From positions 1-47,271 of the forward strand of contig PWSY01000185.1 in assembly GCA_003563055.1 (NCBI GenBank): a stretch of DNA of 47,271 bases. Direction: 5' to 3'. This document shows positions 18,851 to 33,711 of this stretch, piece after piece. The notes under the pieces were generated by a model. The model was given only the letters and a program-made list of their open reading frames with translations. It was not told the origin of the DNA and searched no databases. The DNA is from Anaerolineaceae bacterium (lineage in GTDB: Bacteria; Chloroflexota; Anaerolineae; Anaerolineales; Anaerolineaceae). Every line of letters starts with the position of its first letter. Position 1 is the first letter of the stretch. The position numbers and the translations under genes were made by a program.

Positions 18851-19362
18851 AAATCAACTTTTCTCTTCAAGTATGAAAGCTCTAAACAAAAATTGCATGC
18901 TGTGTGTTTAATGCGCCTGTATACACATACACAAGACATTAAAATGAGTGTAAACAATAAAATTGGTAGATAAAATCTCAGATTCTACAAAAAGAACGCT
19001 ATCCCGTGCACTGCCCCGTGGATTCTTTTTCTAAGCTTAGCAGGTATTTGATTTCTGTGAATGTCATTCGGGAAGCAGTCTTTCGCACAGCTGCCGAGAT
19101 AAGAAACAAGGTTAATCTCAGATCAGCGTTTAATGATTTTTCTGGATAGCTAGATAATTATATCAGTCTTTTAAAACCCTCGCAAGTCATTATTTCAGAT
19201 CAAGTATATCTCCATAATGTATATACTTACATTCATAATACTTGAATTTCCCAAACGGTCAAGTCCAATTTTTGGTCAATTACCGACGATACCACGGTCA
19301 TTTATCTGTGCTATGCTATAATCTCCTCATAAATATCATTTTTGATCTCACAGGAGTTCCTT
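18851..19362. other. 512-base divergent intergenic region between rho and ftsK
   Basis: No open frame is supported. Visible structure: AAAAAGAA (about 18989) and TTCTTTTT (about 19022) as a loose inverted pair, and a cluster of inverted repeats. AAGTATAT (19202-19209) pairs with ATATACTT (19220-19228), and TCAAGTAT (19200-19207) pairs with ATACTTGA (19239-19246). A -10 TATAAT lies at 19317-19322 for ftsK, with no good -35. The cluster may be an operator or a leader structure. Confidence 0.45.
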
Positions 19363-21636
19363 TTGGCACGCCGGTCATCTAAGAAATCCACACCCAGCAA
19401 ACTCATAAAAGGCCGTACAAAATCAGCATCTCAACAGACTTTCCTTTCTGGTATTTCAACACAACGCAGGTTGGACATCCTGGCCATTTTTTTGGTGCTG
19501 ATTGGTCTCCTGACATTGATAAGTCTCTTCTCCCAGACACCAGGCAGCATCACGGGATGGTGGATCATCCAACTCAAGTACGCGATGGGATGGGGTACCT
19601 ATATTTTCCCCCTGGTCTTGATCCTATTGGGCATTTGGATTCTCCTTCGGAACATCGATAGTCTGCCCCCCCTCTCAACTGAACGACTGGTTGGCATCAT
19701 TCTTTTCTTTACTAATATGACTGCCTGGTTTCATCTGTTCATTGATGGTGGCCAACCAGAAGCGATATCAGGCCTGGGTGGTGGGCAGATTGGCGCCTTT
19801 ATAAAACTAGGGTTTGTACGCACGCTGGGAAGGCCAGGTGCAGTTATCGCTCTAATAGCCTGGCTGTTGATCAGTTTGATCCTTATATTGGACCTTATCA
19901 TGGCGAATGTCATCAGGTGGTTGGGACACACAGTTGAGAAAATTGTTAATAAACTGTTTAAACTTATTAAAAGACTCCTGACCCAGGTGCGCAGTCACAG
20001 AAAACTCAAAGATCATCCATCAACAGGCCAGGTTCAATCGACGATAACCCAGTCAAACTCTAAACAGACACCTGAACAAACACCGAATAAAACGACCTCT
20101 CAAGATTCTGAGGTCGACCCCAACAACTTAGACGGCAATGGCATACCCACAGAGCCAATTTGGGAGCTGCCTGATCCGGACATGATCCTCGACCCGGCCA
20201 TTGAAGCCCCCGATGATGGTGAAAATGATCGGCAGAGAGCCCGGGTGATAGAAGAAACACTCCGATCTTTTGGTGCGCCTGCCCAGGTGGTCGATATCCG
20301 CAGCGGCCCAACTGTCACTTTATTTGGGGTTGAGCCTGCATTTATAGAAACTCGCAATGGGAAAACCCGTGTACGCGTTTCAAAAATCACTGCTTTGGTG
20401 GATGACCTGGCTTTGGCCCTAGCAGCTGCCCGCATCCGCATCCAGGCCCCTGTCCCAGGCAAGGGATATATCGGCATCGAAGTTCCAAATCGGCAGGTCT
20501 CGCTGGTCTCGTTGCACGAAATTATCAACAGCCCGGTCTATAAAAACCTCCAGTCACCCCTGAAAATGGCGTTAGGTAAAGATGTGGCCGGCAAGACTGT
20601 CGCTGCCGATCTGACCAACATGCCGCATTTATTGATCGCAGGCACAACCGGCGCAGGGAAATCTGTTTGTATAAACGATATCCTGACCTGCTTTTTATTA
20701 AACATGACCCCGGATGACCTGCGCCTTATTCTTGTAGACCCAAAACGTGTCGAGCTGACCGGCTATAATGGCATTCCACACCTGCTGGCACCTGTCATCG
20801 TGGATGCAGAACATGTTGTCGGTGCCTTGCAATGGATGATGCGGGAAATGGACAGCCGTTATCGAAAATTCTCGGAAGCCACAGTGCGAAATATCGCTGA
20901 CTACAATACCCTGTGCACACAGACTCAGAAGAAAAAATTACCTTATCTACTGGTCGTCATAGACGAACTGGCAGACCTGATGTTGCTGGCACCCGACGAA
21001 ACAGAACGCACGATCACCCGACTGGCACAGCTTGCAAGGGCAACAGGCATTCACCTGATCATTGCTACCCAGAGACCTTCGACCGATATCATAACAGGAC
21101 TCATCAAGGCAAACTTCCCTGCTCGGATCGCATTTGCAGTTGCCTCATCGGTAGACAGCCGTGTTATCCTCGACCAACCTGGAGCAGAACGTCTGCTTGG
21201 CCGTGGTGACATGCTTTTTCAAGCACCAGATGCCGCTTCTCCCATCAGAATCCAAAGTGCGTTTGTCTCAGACACAGAAATCAACCGTCTGGTCACCTAT
21301 TGGCGTAGCTTCACTGTTTCTAAAGGGGCACCACAGCGACCAGATCAGCCGGCTGCTTTTCAAACAACTAAAGGCGTGCCCTTCAAACAAACACCCCTTT
21401 GGGAAGAATTTTTAGAGGATAAAGATCTTGACCCAAGGTTTGATGAAGCCCTTGCAGTTATTCGGGAAGAAGGGCAAGCTTCCGTGTCCATGCTGCAGCG
21501 TAAAATGCGCATTGGTTATACCCGTGCGGCGCGAATAATTGATACCATGCAAGCCAAAGGGATCATCAGTGAGCCAGACCCAAAAACACAACTGCGAGAC
21601 ATTCTCGACCAGGATGAAGCCCAAACTAATCTCTGA
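19363..21636 (+). CDS. ftsK: DNA translocase FtsK/SpoIIIE
   Basis: A 757-residue protein that pumps chromosomal DNA at the division septum. About four N-terminal membrane helices (about residues 40-180), a variable linker to about 250, the motor domain with Walker A GTTGAGKS (427-434), Walker B LLVVIDELADLM and the C-terminal gamma winged helix (about 700-757, with SVSMLQRKMRIGYTRAARII). The TTG at 19363 is chosen because CAGGAG stands about 7 bases upstream; an upstream TTG at 19342 has none. All motor motifs are present and the length is normal. No neighbours related to division are visible. Confidence 0.95.
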   Translation: MARRSSKKSTPSKLIKGRTKSASQQTFLSGISTQRRLDILAIFLVLIGLLTLISLFSQTPGSITGWWIIQLKYAMGWGTYIFPLVLILLGIWILLRNIDSLPPLSTERLVGIILFFTNMTAWFHLFIDGGQPEAISGLGGGQIGAFIKLGFVRTLGRPGAVIALIAWLLISLILILDLIMANVIRWLGHTVEKIVNKLFKLIKRLLTQVRSHRKLKDHPSTGQVQSTITQSNSKQTPEQTPNKTTSQDSEVDPNNLDGNGIPTEPIWELPDPDMILDPAIEAPDDGENDRQRARVIEETLRSFGAPAQVVDIRSGPTVTLFGVEPAFIETRNGKTRVRVSKITALVDDLALALAAARIRIQAPVPGKGYIGIEVPNRQVSLVSLHEIINSPVYKNLQSPLKMALGKDVAGKTVAADLTNMPHLLIAGTTGAGKSVCINDILTCFLLNMTPDDLRLILVDPKRVELTGYNGIPHLLAPVIVDAEHVVGALQWMMREMDSRYRKFSEATVRNIADYNTLCTQTQKKKLPYLLVVIDELADLMLLAPDETERTITRLAQLARATGIHLIIATQRPSTDIITGLIKANFPARIAFAVASSVDSRVILDQPGAERLLGRGDMLFQAPDAASPIRIQSAFVSDTEINRLVTYWRSFTVSKGAPQRPDQPAAFQTTKGVPFKQTPLWEEFLEDKDLDPRFDEALAVIREEGQASVSMLQRKMRIGYTRAARIIDTMQAKGIISEPDPKTQLRDILDQDEAQTNL

Positions 21637-30724: not shown

Positions 30725-30982
30725 TCAGGGCACTGGACTATTTTGCTGCTGGACACCTATCCAAAAGTGATGGAGAAGCATTGAATTATTCACACACACA
30801 GTCACTTTGCCTGCCATCAAGACCTTGTCAGGCATCATGCTGGGGTGGACAAAACACAGGTTAGGTGTCTGACCATATTTTTTCTGATAATAAGCAGCCG
30901 CCTTTTTAACCTTACTGAGAAAATCTGATTGAGGATTGTTATCAAACCATAACATACCCATTTCAATAACTTCTGCTTGCAT
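30725..30982 (-). CDS. Small uncharacterised protein, second gene of the SOS-like operon
   Basis: An 85-residue soluble protein with a helical middle (FLSKVKKAAAYYQKKYGQ) and a Cys/His-containing second half. I do not recognise a domain. The ATG lies 3 bases after the stop of the ATPase gene (TAGataATG), with GGGAG about 8 bases upstream, so it is certainly translated in the same transcript and shares the LexA-like promoter at 31856-31897. The co-occurrence suggests that it is a partner or effector of the ATPase. It converges with the metallophosphoesterase. Confidence 0.7.
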   Translation of the reverse strand: MQAEVIEMGMLWFDNNPQSDFLSKVKKAAAYYQKKYGQTPNLCFVHPSMMPDKVLMAGKVTVCVNNSMLLHHFWIGVQQQNSPVP

Positions 30983-30985
30983 TAT

Positions 30986-31831
30986 CTAGTCTCCCAGAGG
31001 CAATAACCGGTAATTCACCCACTCTTTCCCCGAATAAACCTGGAACGAACCTGGTTCTAATCCCGCTACCTGAGGGCATAAACCCATCGTCAGGGTTTTC
31101 GTAGTATCTGGACACAAGACCCGGCCCACAACCCTGGTACGGAAAGGGTCAATCCAATATCGAAAAGCAGTGGCATACCTGGCATTGATTGCTCCAATCA
31201 GCCAGACACCGGATTGTGCGCCATATTCCAGAAACCAGCGTAAATTGACCTGGGCTTCAAAACTGAGTTCTTCCACAAAATTGAAATCATCGAGAATGAA
31301 CAAAATATCCGGGCCTCTTTGAGTCCTTTGCCTGCGTGTATCTGCTAAATCCGTTAACGCCTGAATGGTATCGTCAACCGGATCATCATGCCAGGCGTAG
31401 ACGCCCTGCAGGTGTGCTAGCCGGTTGCCCTCCCTCTGTAAATTGGTCCATTCATTCGGGTTGAGCGTCAGGACCGTTACTTGCATTTTGCTGGGTGAAT
31501 ATGTGCGAATGGCAGATTCAACCATGACCTGCAACTGGTGGGTCTTGCCAAAGCCCTCTTCACAACAGACCAAAATAGCACCCATTTCCGGGTTGGCCAG
31601 CTCCAGCAGAAAAGGCAGGCCATCCGCACACTGCCCCAACAAAATTGAACCTGAAGGCATTGGCCCGCACCCTCGCAGCAAACTCCCCACGGTGGTTATC
31701 TCATAATGATCATAGCTGCCTTTTCGACCCTTAAAATGCGTTGGCTTTTGCACAGTACAAATTGAAAATTGCTTTTTGCAGGTTTGGGTCTCATTCAGCA
31801 CAACACCCGTTGTGACTATATTCGATGGCAT
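30986..31831 (-). CDS. P-loop ATPase (FtsK/HerA-like) under LexA-like control
   Basis: A 281-residue P-loop protein from the ATG at 31831 (a TTG at 31834 also fits). About 90 N-terminal residues precede Walker A CEEGFGKT (residues 90-97, with Cys at the first Gly position), and Walker B is DILFILDD, with the two Asp at 181-182. A conserved stretch follows (NARYATAFRYWIDPFRTRVVG). The plan resembles the motor of FtsK/HerA-type ATPases but is shorter and lacks a known accessory domain. AAGGAGG stands 8 bases before the ATG, and the promoter is strong and carries two LexA-like boxes. Function unknown; a DNA-damage role is inferred from control alone. Confidence 0.75.
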   Translation of the reverse strand: MPSNIVTTGVVLNETQTCKKQFSICTVQKPTHFKGRKGSYDHYEITTVGSLLRGCGPMPSGSILLGQCADGLPFLLELANPEMGAILVCCEEGFGKTHQLQVMVESAIRTYSPSKMQVTVLTLNPNEWTNLQREGNRLAHLQGVYAWHDDPVDDTIQALTDLADTRRQRTQRGPDILFILDDFNFVEELSFEAQVNLRWFLEYGAQSGVWLIGAINARYATAFRYWIDPFRTRVVGRVLCPDTTKTLTMGLCPQVAGLEPGSFQVYSGKEWVNYRLLPLGD

Positions 31832-31855
31832 CAAGTCTACCTCCTTACGATATAA

Positions 31856-31897
31856 GAACTTATGTTCTAATTATACAGAACTTTTGTTCTGTGTCAA
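31856..31897 (-). promoter_or_regulatory. Strong promoter with two LexA-like operators
   Basis: On the minus strand TTGACA (31892-31897) and TATAAT (31870-31875) are both perfect, 16 bases apart. Box 1 GAAC-AAAA-GTTC (31878-31889) fills the spacer and box 2 GAAC-ATAA-GTTC (31856-31867) lies just after -10. Their centres are 22 bp apart, on one face of the helix. GAACN4GTTC is the core of the Gram-positive-type LexA box. AAGGAGG at 31840-31846 is the ribosome site of the ATPase. Confidence 0.88.
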
Positions 31898-32370: not shown

Positions 32371-33711
32371 ATGAATAATGAAGATGTATTAAAAAGAATT
32401 AAGCAAGACGGTATTAAGTTCATTTCGTTTCAATTCACAGATGTAAATGGCGTGGTCAAGAGCGTGGATGGTCCTGTGAACCAGGTGGAACGGGCATTAA
32501 ATGATGGCATCTGGTTTGATGGTTCCTCTGTGGAAGGGTTCGCCCGTATTCAGGAAAGCGATATGCACCTGGTACTAGACCCAGATACATATGCCGTACT
32601 GCCCTGGACGCCCAAAGAGATGCGTCGCGCAAGGGTATTATGTGATATTTATCTGCCAAATGGCGACCCCTTTGAAGGTGACCCCAGAGGGGTCTTAAAA
32701 CGACGCTTAGCGCAATTACAAAAAGATCATAACTGGATTCTAAACATCGGTCCAGAACCTGAATTCTTCCTCTTCTTGCAAAACGGAAAAGAGACCATTC
32801 GCCCGGTGCCCCATGATGTGGGCGGCTACTTTGACTTTTCTGCCAATGATGAAGCGGTCCAGGTGCGAACTGAGTTGATGGATGCTCTAAGTGAAATGGG
32901 GCTTGAAATTGAGATGGGACATCATGAAGTCGCCCTGGGACAGCATGAGATCGATTTCCATTTTGCTGATGCGTTGAAGACAGCGGATAATGTGTTAACT
33001 TTAAAATACGCGGTGAAGGCAATTGCTGCCCAGCATGGGCTGATTGCCTCATTTATGCCAAAGCCTGTTTATGGCATCAACGGCTCGGGCATGCATTGTC
33101 ATCAATCCATTTTTAACCAGCAAGGGCAGAACCTGTTTTACGATAAACAAGACCCGTACCAGCTTTCAGAATTGGCATACCAGTTCATTGCCGGCCAACT
33201 TCACCATGCCAAAGCCCTTTCTGCAATCGTAGCCCCCACTGTAAACTCATATAAACGACTGGTTCCCGGCTATGAAGCACCCGTTTATATTGGCTGGGCA
33301 CAGGTCAATCGCTCCGCTCTGATTCGCATTCCCCAACCGTTATCTGACAAGCCCAATACAGTACGCTTAGAATTACGCTGCCCGGACCCCTCCTCTAACC
33401 CGTACCTGGCCTTCAATGCCATGCTGGCAGCGGGTATTGATGGTATTGAGCAAACCCTAACCTGCCCAAAACCCTTGAACCAACTCAATGTTTATGACCT
33501 GACAGACGATGTCCGCCTTGATTTGGGTATTGATATGTTACCTGGCTCTCTGTTTGAAGCATTAAATGCTTTTGAAAGCAATCATGTGCTGAAAAATGCC
33601 CTGGGTAAAAACCTGACTGAGGCATTTTTAAAAGCCAGGCGAACTGAATGGGAAGCCTTCCGGATCGATGTCACCGATTGGGAGTTGAACCGGTACCTGA
33701 CGACAGCCTGA
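32371..33711 (+). CDS. glnA: Glutamine synthetase, type I
   Basis: A 446-residue GSI that makes glutamine from glutamate, ammonia and ATP. Signatures are FDGSSVEGF near residues 49-57, EPEFFLF near 129-135, NGSGMHCHQSI near 235-245 and LELRCPDPSSNPY near 330-342. The length is that of the GSI-alpha subtype, which normally lacks the adenylylation control of the beta subtype; NVYDL near 373-377 carries a Tyr but a different context from the adenylylation site. The ATG has CGGAGG upstream. A perfect terminator follows. Confidence 0.95.
   Translation: MNNEDVLKRIKQDGIKFISFQFTDVNGVVKSVDGPVNQVERALNDGIWFDGSSVEGFARIQESDMHLVLDPDTYAVLPWTPKEMRRARVLCDIYLPNGDPFEGDPRGVLKRRLAQLQKDHNWILNIGPEPEFFLFLQNGKETIRPVPHDVGGYFDFSANDEAVQVRTELMDALSEMGLEIEMGHHEVALGQHEIDFHFADALKTADNVLTLKYAVKAIAAQHGLIASFMPKPVYGINGSGMHCHQSIFNQQGQNLFYDKQDPYQLSELAYQFIAGQLHHAKALSAIVAPTVNSYKRLVPGYEAPVYIGWAQVNRSALIRIPQPLSDKPNTVRLELRCPDPSSNPYLAFNAMLAAGIDGIEQTLTCPKPLNQLNVYDLTDDVRLDLGIDMLPGSLFEALNAFESNHVLKNALGKNLTEAFLKARRTEWEAFRIDVTDWELNRYLTTA

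Follow-up and report, generated by a model that had tools for sequence, protein, structure and literature searches.

A two-gene operon in the window, the 47,271-nucleotide stretch of Anaerolineaceae DNA analysed here, is very probably controlled by LexA. It very probably belongs to the cell's emergency response to DNA damage, because a double LexA switch is conserved in the promoters of its relatives. The operon encodes a predicted degenerate FtsK-family ATPase and an 85-residue protein, here called P2. P2 represents a family for which neither Pfam nor the PDB gave a convincing relative and which recurs behind a LexA-type box across the phylum. The operon is read here, tentatively, as a LexA-repressed SOS effector module of Chloroflexota that may act as a checkpoint on segregation or division.

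Both genes lie on the minus strand behind a promoter whose hexamers match the consensus at 12 of 12 positions and are separated by a 16-bp spacer. This is the perfect TTGACA-16-TATAAT promoter that the first-pass annotation of the window had described. The two perfect GAAC-N4-GTTC boxes that it had placed in the spacer and past the -10 hexamer are also present. The core GAACTTTTGTTC occupies the spacer (31878-31889) and the core GAACTTATGTTC lies just downstream of the -10 hexamer (31856-31867), with the box centres 22 bp apart. Transcription of the pair would start near position 31863. The stop of the ATPase gene (30986) and the start of the P2 gene (30982) are separated by 3 bases, which confirms the two-gene arrangement first proposed, and the P2 ribosome site GGGAG, as read from the sequence, sits inside the 3´ end of the ATPase gene. 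The features are as follows.

31892-31897, minus strand: -35 hexamer TTGACA, read from the sequence and retained in 16/16 genus genomes.
31877-31890, minus strand: LexA-type box 1, AGAACAAAAGTTCT (core 31878-31889), within the promoter spacer, with at most one mismatch in 16/16 genus genomes.
31870-31875, minus strand: -10 hexamer TATAAT, from sequence reading and genus comparison.
31855-31868, minus strand: LexA-type box 2, AGAACATAAGTTCT (core 31856-31867), which covers the predicted start of transcription and differs at no more than one position in each of the 16 genus genomes.
31840-31846, minus strand: ribosome-binding site AAGGAGG of the ATPase gene, read from the sequence, with similar sites before the ATG in several relatives.
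30986-31831, minus strand: gene of a degenerate FtsK-family ATPase (281 aa), named from a Pfam FtsK_SpoIIIE match below the cut-off and from Foldseek.
31541-31564, minus strand: Walker A-like CEEGFGKT with the first Gly changed to Cys, from the sequence and genus comparison.
31286-31306, minus strand: Walker B-like ILFILDD, from sequence comparison.
30725-30982, minus strand: gene of P2 (85 aa), with conserved GMLWFDN, YYxKYG, NLCFVHP and HFWIGV motifs and a predicted beta-alpha-beta-beta-beta order.

The ATPase probably starts at ATG 31831 (281 aa) and not at TTG 31834 of the 282-aa open reading frame, because a GGAGG lies upstream of the ATG and five named relatives have ATG starts near that position.

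The number of boxes in the window is by itself compatible with chance: two GAACN4GTTC sites are present where 0.77 are expected, and at least two occurred in 19 of 100 shuffles, which is not significant. The extended form AGAACN4GTTCT occurs at four places in the genome that contains the window, a 2.47-Mb draft that is 75.5% complete and of which the window is one contig. Two of the four places are at this promoter, and a control pattern was found once. What exceeds chance is the arrangement of the boxes and its conservation. Every one of the 16 genus genomes retains the block TTGACA - AGAACNNNNGTTCT - TATAAT - AGAACNNNNGTTCT: no box has more than one mismatch, the two 10-position sites together have zero to two, and the spacing is 21-23 bp. 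The DNA that flanks the block is divergent in these genomes. A block conserved amid divergent flanks suggests that the promoter sites are functional, more strongly than any other observation made here.

The same genome encodes a LexA homologue, and LexA_DNA_bind matches were found in 38 of the 41 genomes searched, this one included. The protein (locus L094) carries VAGEP, GDSM and TLKYF motifs, which we take to be the autocleavage site and the Ser-Lys pair. Its own promoter reads TTGACA-TCGAACGTATGTTCGAG-TATGAT, in which the box lies between the -35 and -10 hexamers exactly as box 1 of the pair does. Exact GAACN4GTTC is present in 29 of the 30 lexA loci fetched, mostly about 60-100 bp from the match. 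The situation at recA is less strict. In 29 of 30 recA loci, an exact-match scan found no box anywhere, and the locus L096 contains two exact sites, one within the gene match and one distant. Such a scan is escaped by a one-base variant of the box. When up to one mismatch was allowed, a site was found in 23 of the 28 loci whose recA gene could be located, compared with 3 of 28 for the backwards pattern. The 11 genus recA loci fetched, including the one in this genome, have TGAACATNTGTGCTAA in common, at a distance of about 90-130 bp upstream of the estimated gene start, and the conserved one-base variant of the LexA box in the genus recA loci (L108, L114, L115, L117, L119-L121, L122 and L123-L125) is GAACATNTGTGC. 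The box that the first-pass annotation expected before lexA and recA is consequently exact at lexA, and at recA it is a conserved version with one mismatch, not a perfect one. The LexA homologue and the box in its promoter support the LexA-controlled SOS operon that the annotation had proposed. Its identification of GAACN4GTTC as the core of the Gram-positive-type LexA box also agrees with a 2012 study, in which B. subtilis and other Gram-positives have GAAC-N4-GTTC as their LexA motif (PMC3323433).

On this basis, LexA dimers bound to both boxes, one between the -35 and -10 hexamers and the other over the start site, would shut the promoter of the pair. After DNA damage, RecA-stimulated self-cleavage of LexA would open it, so that the pair would be induced. 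A bulk scan for the box in one genome (G009) gave 31 pattern matches compared with 27 for a control, which indicates that most single boxes there arose by chance; only sites with extended flanks or a conserved position were therefore used.

The box is associated with P2 over the phylum. P2 relatives were found in 49 of the 61 near-circle genomes, 44 of them with a single copy, in 86 of 400 genomes sampled across the phylum and, with a narrower query, in 114 of 297 genomes of the class. Neighbourhoods were read for 53 of the 54 near-circle matches (a weak match in G014 was omitted), 40 matches of the phylum sample and 40 of the class search; near-duplicate families were thinned by eye, and many of the genomes are incomplete. 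The first set comprises 93 P2 copies, of which 6 adjoin both mraY and murD and 87 lie elsewhere. Exact GAACN4GTTC occurs within 2 kb upstream in 61 of these 87 loci; neither the backwards pattern nor the 2 kb downstream gave any match (0/87 each). Three of the 87 (L010, L150 and L212) have at most 136 bp of upstream DNA, which is too short to show a box. Usable upstream DNA is present in 23 of the 26 loci that lack an exact box. Among these 23, AGAACN4GTTCT with one mismatch is present within 1.3 kb in 11 and absent in 12, with no match for the backwards control. The second set of 40 copies has 4 in the dcw cluster and 36 elsewhere. An exact box lies within 2.5 kb upstream in 19 of the 36 (21 when one mismatch is allowed), and two exact boxes lie downstream; the backwards control gave no exact match and two with one mismatch. 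The 15 loci that have neither an exact nor a one-mismatch box include 4 with less than 1.7 kb of upstream DNA. The box at P2 loci is often extended to TAGAACN4GTTCTA. The footprint in 16/16 genus genomes together with the association outside the dcw cluster led to the rejection of chance palindromes as an explanation.

P2 itself has no described function in the libraries and literature searched, and the same holds for the gene pair, as had been claimed. It has no match in NCBIfam or PHROGs and no convincing one in Pfam, where the best value (E 0.0024, in 1 of 24 members) is not credible. Comparison with the PDB gave no credible relative by sequence (best E 0.058) or by fold (best E 0.72); the weak fold matches include phage capsids and, lower in rank, FtsZ. 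A model built from six sequences (pLDDT 78) has the order beta-alpha-beta-beta-beta. P2 lacks an obvious transmembrane stretch and a LysM match, and to our knowledge it has no counterpart in E. coli. No relative was found among 50,697 phage and 72,556 plasmid records, and viral contigs gave no credible one, the lone match of 12 residues (L259) being due to chance; a phage or plasmid gene was rejected for this reason. A toxin-antitoxin pair also seems unlikely because P2 occurs alone and in the dcw cluster. A P2 tree was computed over 79 columns with 51 of 93 rows, 2 rows being omitted for scores below 30 and 40 for a matched stretch that was short or contained a stop. With 22 of 48 inner branches open, it supports nothing firm; its five dcw rows need three changes.

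The ATPase appears from its sequence to be a degenerate relative of soluble FtsK proteins that are themselves found behind LexA-type boxes. Its match to the FtsK_SpoIIIE motor family of Pfam (PF01580) scores 19.6 bits and falls below the cut-off of 24, and Pfam gave no match to the FtsK alpha domain. A model (pLDDT 63) matches the EccC, EssC and FtsK motors in Foldseek (best E 8.5e-9), and EccC5 is the only PDB profile match (E 0.006). The best NCBIfam match is the EccC/EssC family, at 21.6 bits compared with an equivalog cut-off of 346.55, and membership of that family was rejected on this score. The Walker A motif starting with Cys that the first-pass annotation reported is present as CEEGFGKT. 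All 16 genus genomes keep the GKT and the window has the DD, and the first Gly of the canonical P-loop is changed. The P-loop is also altered, or is not found by motif, in several other loci of the same family, which suggests that pumping is hardly the conserved function; any ATPase activity of the window protein would be conjectural. The short FtsK/HerA-like motor of the first-pass annotation stands as a statement of descent, since the relatives outside the family include LexA-boxed soluble FtsK proteins, although in the genus the motor is degenerate and scores below the Pfam FtsK cut-off. A full housekeeping FtsK is encoded separately about 10 kb from the pair (19342-21636, plus strand), with four transmembrane segments and alpha, motor and gamma domains. 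An FtsK match lies likewise about 10 kb from the pair in G009, G010, G012 and G013.

Short FtsK proteins of other families were found when the window ATPase served as the query. Eleven of their loci were read: nine encode canonical FtsK-like proteins of about 335-365 aa, one (L296) is degenerate and one (L299) is cut by the contig end. An exact box lies upstream in 7 of the 11, in one case as two boxes 21 bp apart, and P2 is near none of them. The proteins of L146, which has P2, and L293 pass the cut-offs for both the FtsK alpha domain (PF17854) and the motor (PF01580; E 1.7e-29 and 6.5e-32, respectively); they are about 340-355 aa long, and no gamma domain was found in either. A small protein with two hydrophobic stretches, as judged by eye, often follows the FtsK gene and is itself followed by P2 in many genomes. 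The order FtsK, membrane protein, P2 is present in 18 of the 36 second-set loci, 10 with an exact box and 8 with neither an exact nor a one-mismatch box; in 3 of the 10 boxed operons the box lies more than 0.5 kb before the FtsK match. The same order occurs in L146 and L217, with a box, and in L203, which has none. P2 stands alone behind a box in L129, L130, L138, L145, L148, L155 and L160. The operon in the genus of the window contains no membrane protein.

These forms can be ordered, as far as their sequences indicate, into a series of FtsK with membrane protein; FtsK, membrane protein and P2; degenerate ATPase with P2, as in the window; and P2 alone. The fuller form, which occurs elsewhere in the class, would be in effect a split, damage-induced FtsK, in which a soluble FtsK-type translocase (alpha domain and motor, no membrane region) is joined by a small membrane protein and P2. 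If the series runs in this direction, the motor became a small degenerate ATPase in the genus of the window, where the ATPase and P2 are left, and elsewhere P2 alone remained behind the box. P2 is probably the core part of the module, because many genomes retain P2 and the box where the motor is decayed or absent. Boxed loci that encode FtsK and the membrane protein but no P2 count against P2 as the core.

Some P2 copies lie in the dcw cluster of cell-wall and division genes. A P2 copy adjoins mraY, murD or both in ten genomes (G038, G040, G050, G053, G059, G247, G477, G499, G613 and G632), and the copies that sit between these two genes come from several families of a single class. The contig of one of them (L341, in G477) begins too close to show mraY. 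Homologues of PBP, MurF, FtsW or MurG are found around the dcw copies where the contig allows; the dcw and other neighbour genes were named by similarity to a few proteins identified by reading. None of the ten copies has an exact box, and a one-mismatch site was found in 1 of the 4 scanned. Nine of the ten genomes hold further P2 matches. In the tenth, G050, the dcw copy is the only one, and no LexA_DNA_bind match was found.

Because P2 copies sit in the dcw cluster, it is proposed that P2 contacts the divisome or the septal wall-synthesis machinery. The module would act at the septum, where P2 would delay closure and the FtsK-derived partner would clear or sense DNA. Among the roles in repair, mutagenesis or cell-cycle arrest that the first-pass annotation had offered, the evidence leans towards segregation or cell-cycle arrest, and a function in division or segregation is a tentative assignment. 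A more specific version is doubtful. It holds that Chloroflexota possess an SOS division checkpoint of their own that consists of P2 and a LexA-induced split FtsK, made up of a soluble motor and a small membrane anchor. The box-free dcw P2 would take part in normal septal wall synthesis, and the damage-induced copy would either compete with that machinery or recruit it, stalling septation while DNA is cleared; in the genus of the window, the motor would have decayed to a regulatory ATPase. The dcw copies allow a cheap, direct test of whether routine wall synthesis and the damage response rely on one and the same protein family.

The main rival, which is somewhat less likely, is that P2 and its partners assist SOS repair or translesion synthesis, with damaged DNA or a repair polymerase as their target, and that the dcw cluster merely offers its P2 copies convenient constitutive expression. 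DUF6504 proteins occur in the neighbourhood of translesion polymerase genes. In the family with the working label f46, a DUF6504 protein lies directly before P2 in six genomes (G092, G101, G128, G136, G160 and G167; matches above the cut-off, with positions compared) and also in G333 (L199; PF20114, E 8e-8), a pairing that favours repair. L157 has the order ATPase, DUF6504-like protein (E 0.0012, below the cut-off), P2; one DUF6504 copy in the genome of the window adjoins a radical-SAM-like gene, named by reading; and FtsK motors move on DNA. Against repair, only the f46 protein among three intervening proteins tested from P2 loci matched DUF6504, and DUF6504 is named nowhere in the literature searched. 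The place that dcw P2 copies from several families of a single class share, between mraY and murD, also speaks against it, as does the reading by eye of the P2 operons, in which no polymerase or nuclease was noticed. Nor did imuB or dnaE2, the marks of an ImuA-ImuB-DnaE2 mutasome, stand out beside P2 in the loci read. Proteins of similar size occupy the place of DUF6504 in L196 and L214 and have no Pfam match. As separate observations, DUF6504 loci of the f46 type comprise L199, L273, L274, L276-L279, L286 and L288, with a LexA-type box upstream in L274, L276, L278 and L279, and G150 has three DUF6504 genes, two of which have an exact box near by (L286 and L288).

A function in defence or in a mobile element is very improbable; in that case the FtsK/HerA-like ATPase and P2 would counter phages or plasmids, and DNA damage caused by phages would account for the LexA switch. 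In favour of it, the LexA-boxed FtsK relative of L293 matches the PADLOC models SspH (E 5.1e-36) and mad8 (E 3.6e-24) over its motor part. The proteins of the pair (P0001 and P0002) match no PADLOC model at E 0.01. The phage, plasmid and viral-contig searches described above also argue against this explanation, and a single copy in 44 of 49 genomes with similar neighbours within a family is unlike a defence island. Boxes of another repressor, or a housekeeping pair with a chance palindrome, would fit the box count in the window but are most improbable, given the same box at the same position in the lexA promoter, the association of the box with P2 over the phylum and the known Gram-positive LexA motif (PMC3323433).

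The LexA-repressed checkpoint module proposed here resembles several known systems in part. Soluble FtsK proteins of the SftA/SpoIIIE type presumably have, like the relatives described above, an FtsK motor without a membrane domain of its own. The arrangement here differs from that type in that a single operon, behind a LexA box, encodes P2 and a small membrane protein of its own, with no gamma domain found in the two FtsK proteins tested. The EccC/EssC proteins of type VII secretion are the best Foldseek and NCBIfam matches of the ATPase, yet it falls far below the cut-off, and no ESX genes were noticed when the operons were read. SulA, YneA, SosA and SidA are small LexA-controlled SOS division inhibitors; no sequence relation of P2 to them was found in Pfam, NCBIfam or PHROG. 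YneA blocks, or stalls, FtsW according to one report, and P2 is unlike YneA as described there in having no obvious transmembrane stretch (PMC13396833). The closest precedent for an SOS-induced septal translocase is E. coli ftsK, which is driven by the SOS promoter dinH (PMC4080785) and which, as very probably here, places an FtsK-family motor under LexA control. E. coli induces its full membrane-anchored FtsK, whereas here a separate soluble or degenerate relative is controlled and the full FtsK is encoded elsewhere. The Gram-positive LexA box has an identical core and is likewise placed over the promoter in the 2012 study (PMC3323433); here it is doubled, at a distance of 21-23 bp in the genus. 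That study omitted Chloroflexota because no LexA motif had been defined and/or too few complete genomes were available (PMC3323433). The present analysis supplies such a motif, with the core GAAC-N4-GTTC that is often extended to TAGAAC-N4-GTTCTA, together with a few candidate targets. No described SOS regulon, effector or division checkpoint of Chloroflexota appeared in the titles and abstract openings among the matches listed, in a search that left out most subscription papers. A LexA-controlled effector is a known kind of gene; within the scope of these searches, both the module and P2 are novel.

Further LexA-type boxes were observed in G009. In L238 (1501-1512), the box TAGAACACAAGTTCTA follows a TTGACA-like site and precedes a gene whose product, of about 260 aa, contains several hydrophobic stretches; the gene is another candidate LexA target, and its product a possible division inhibitor. 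In L249 (1501-1512), the box TAGAACATTTGTTCTG precedes two genes that lack a convincing Pfam match: the first encodes a 185-aa protein, and the second seems to resemble the beginning of a family B DNA polymerase. Boxes in L242 and L244 lie near genes that resemble those of a single-strand-binding protein, an integrase and a terminase, named by reading, and these loci are possibly prophages under host LexA. Two RNA elements were found elsewhere in the window. A selenocysteine tRNA (RF01852; 178-270, plus strand, 75.2 bits) indicates that the organism probably makes selenoproteins. A glmS ribozyme (RF00234; 32049-32268, plus strand, 39.2 bits against a gathering threshold of 37) lies some 100 bp upstream of the gene for glutamine synthetase (32371-33711) and not before glmS; it is also present in four of the seven related loci scanned (L001, L005, L164 and L165), with a gene of the same size and cluster near by.
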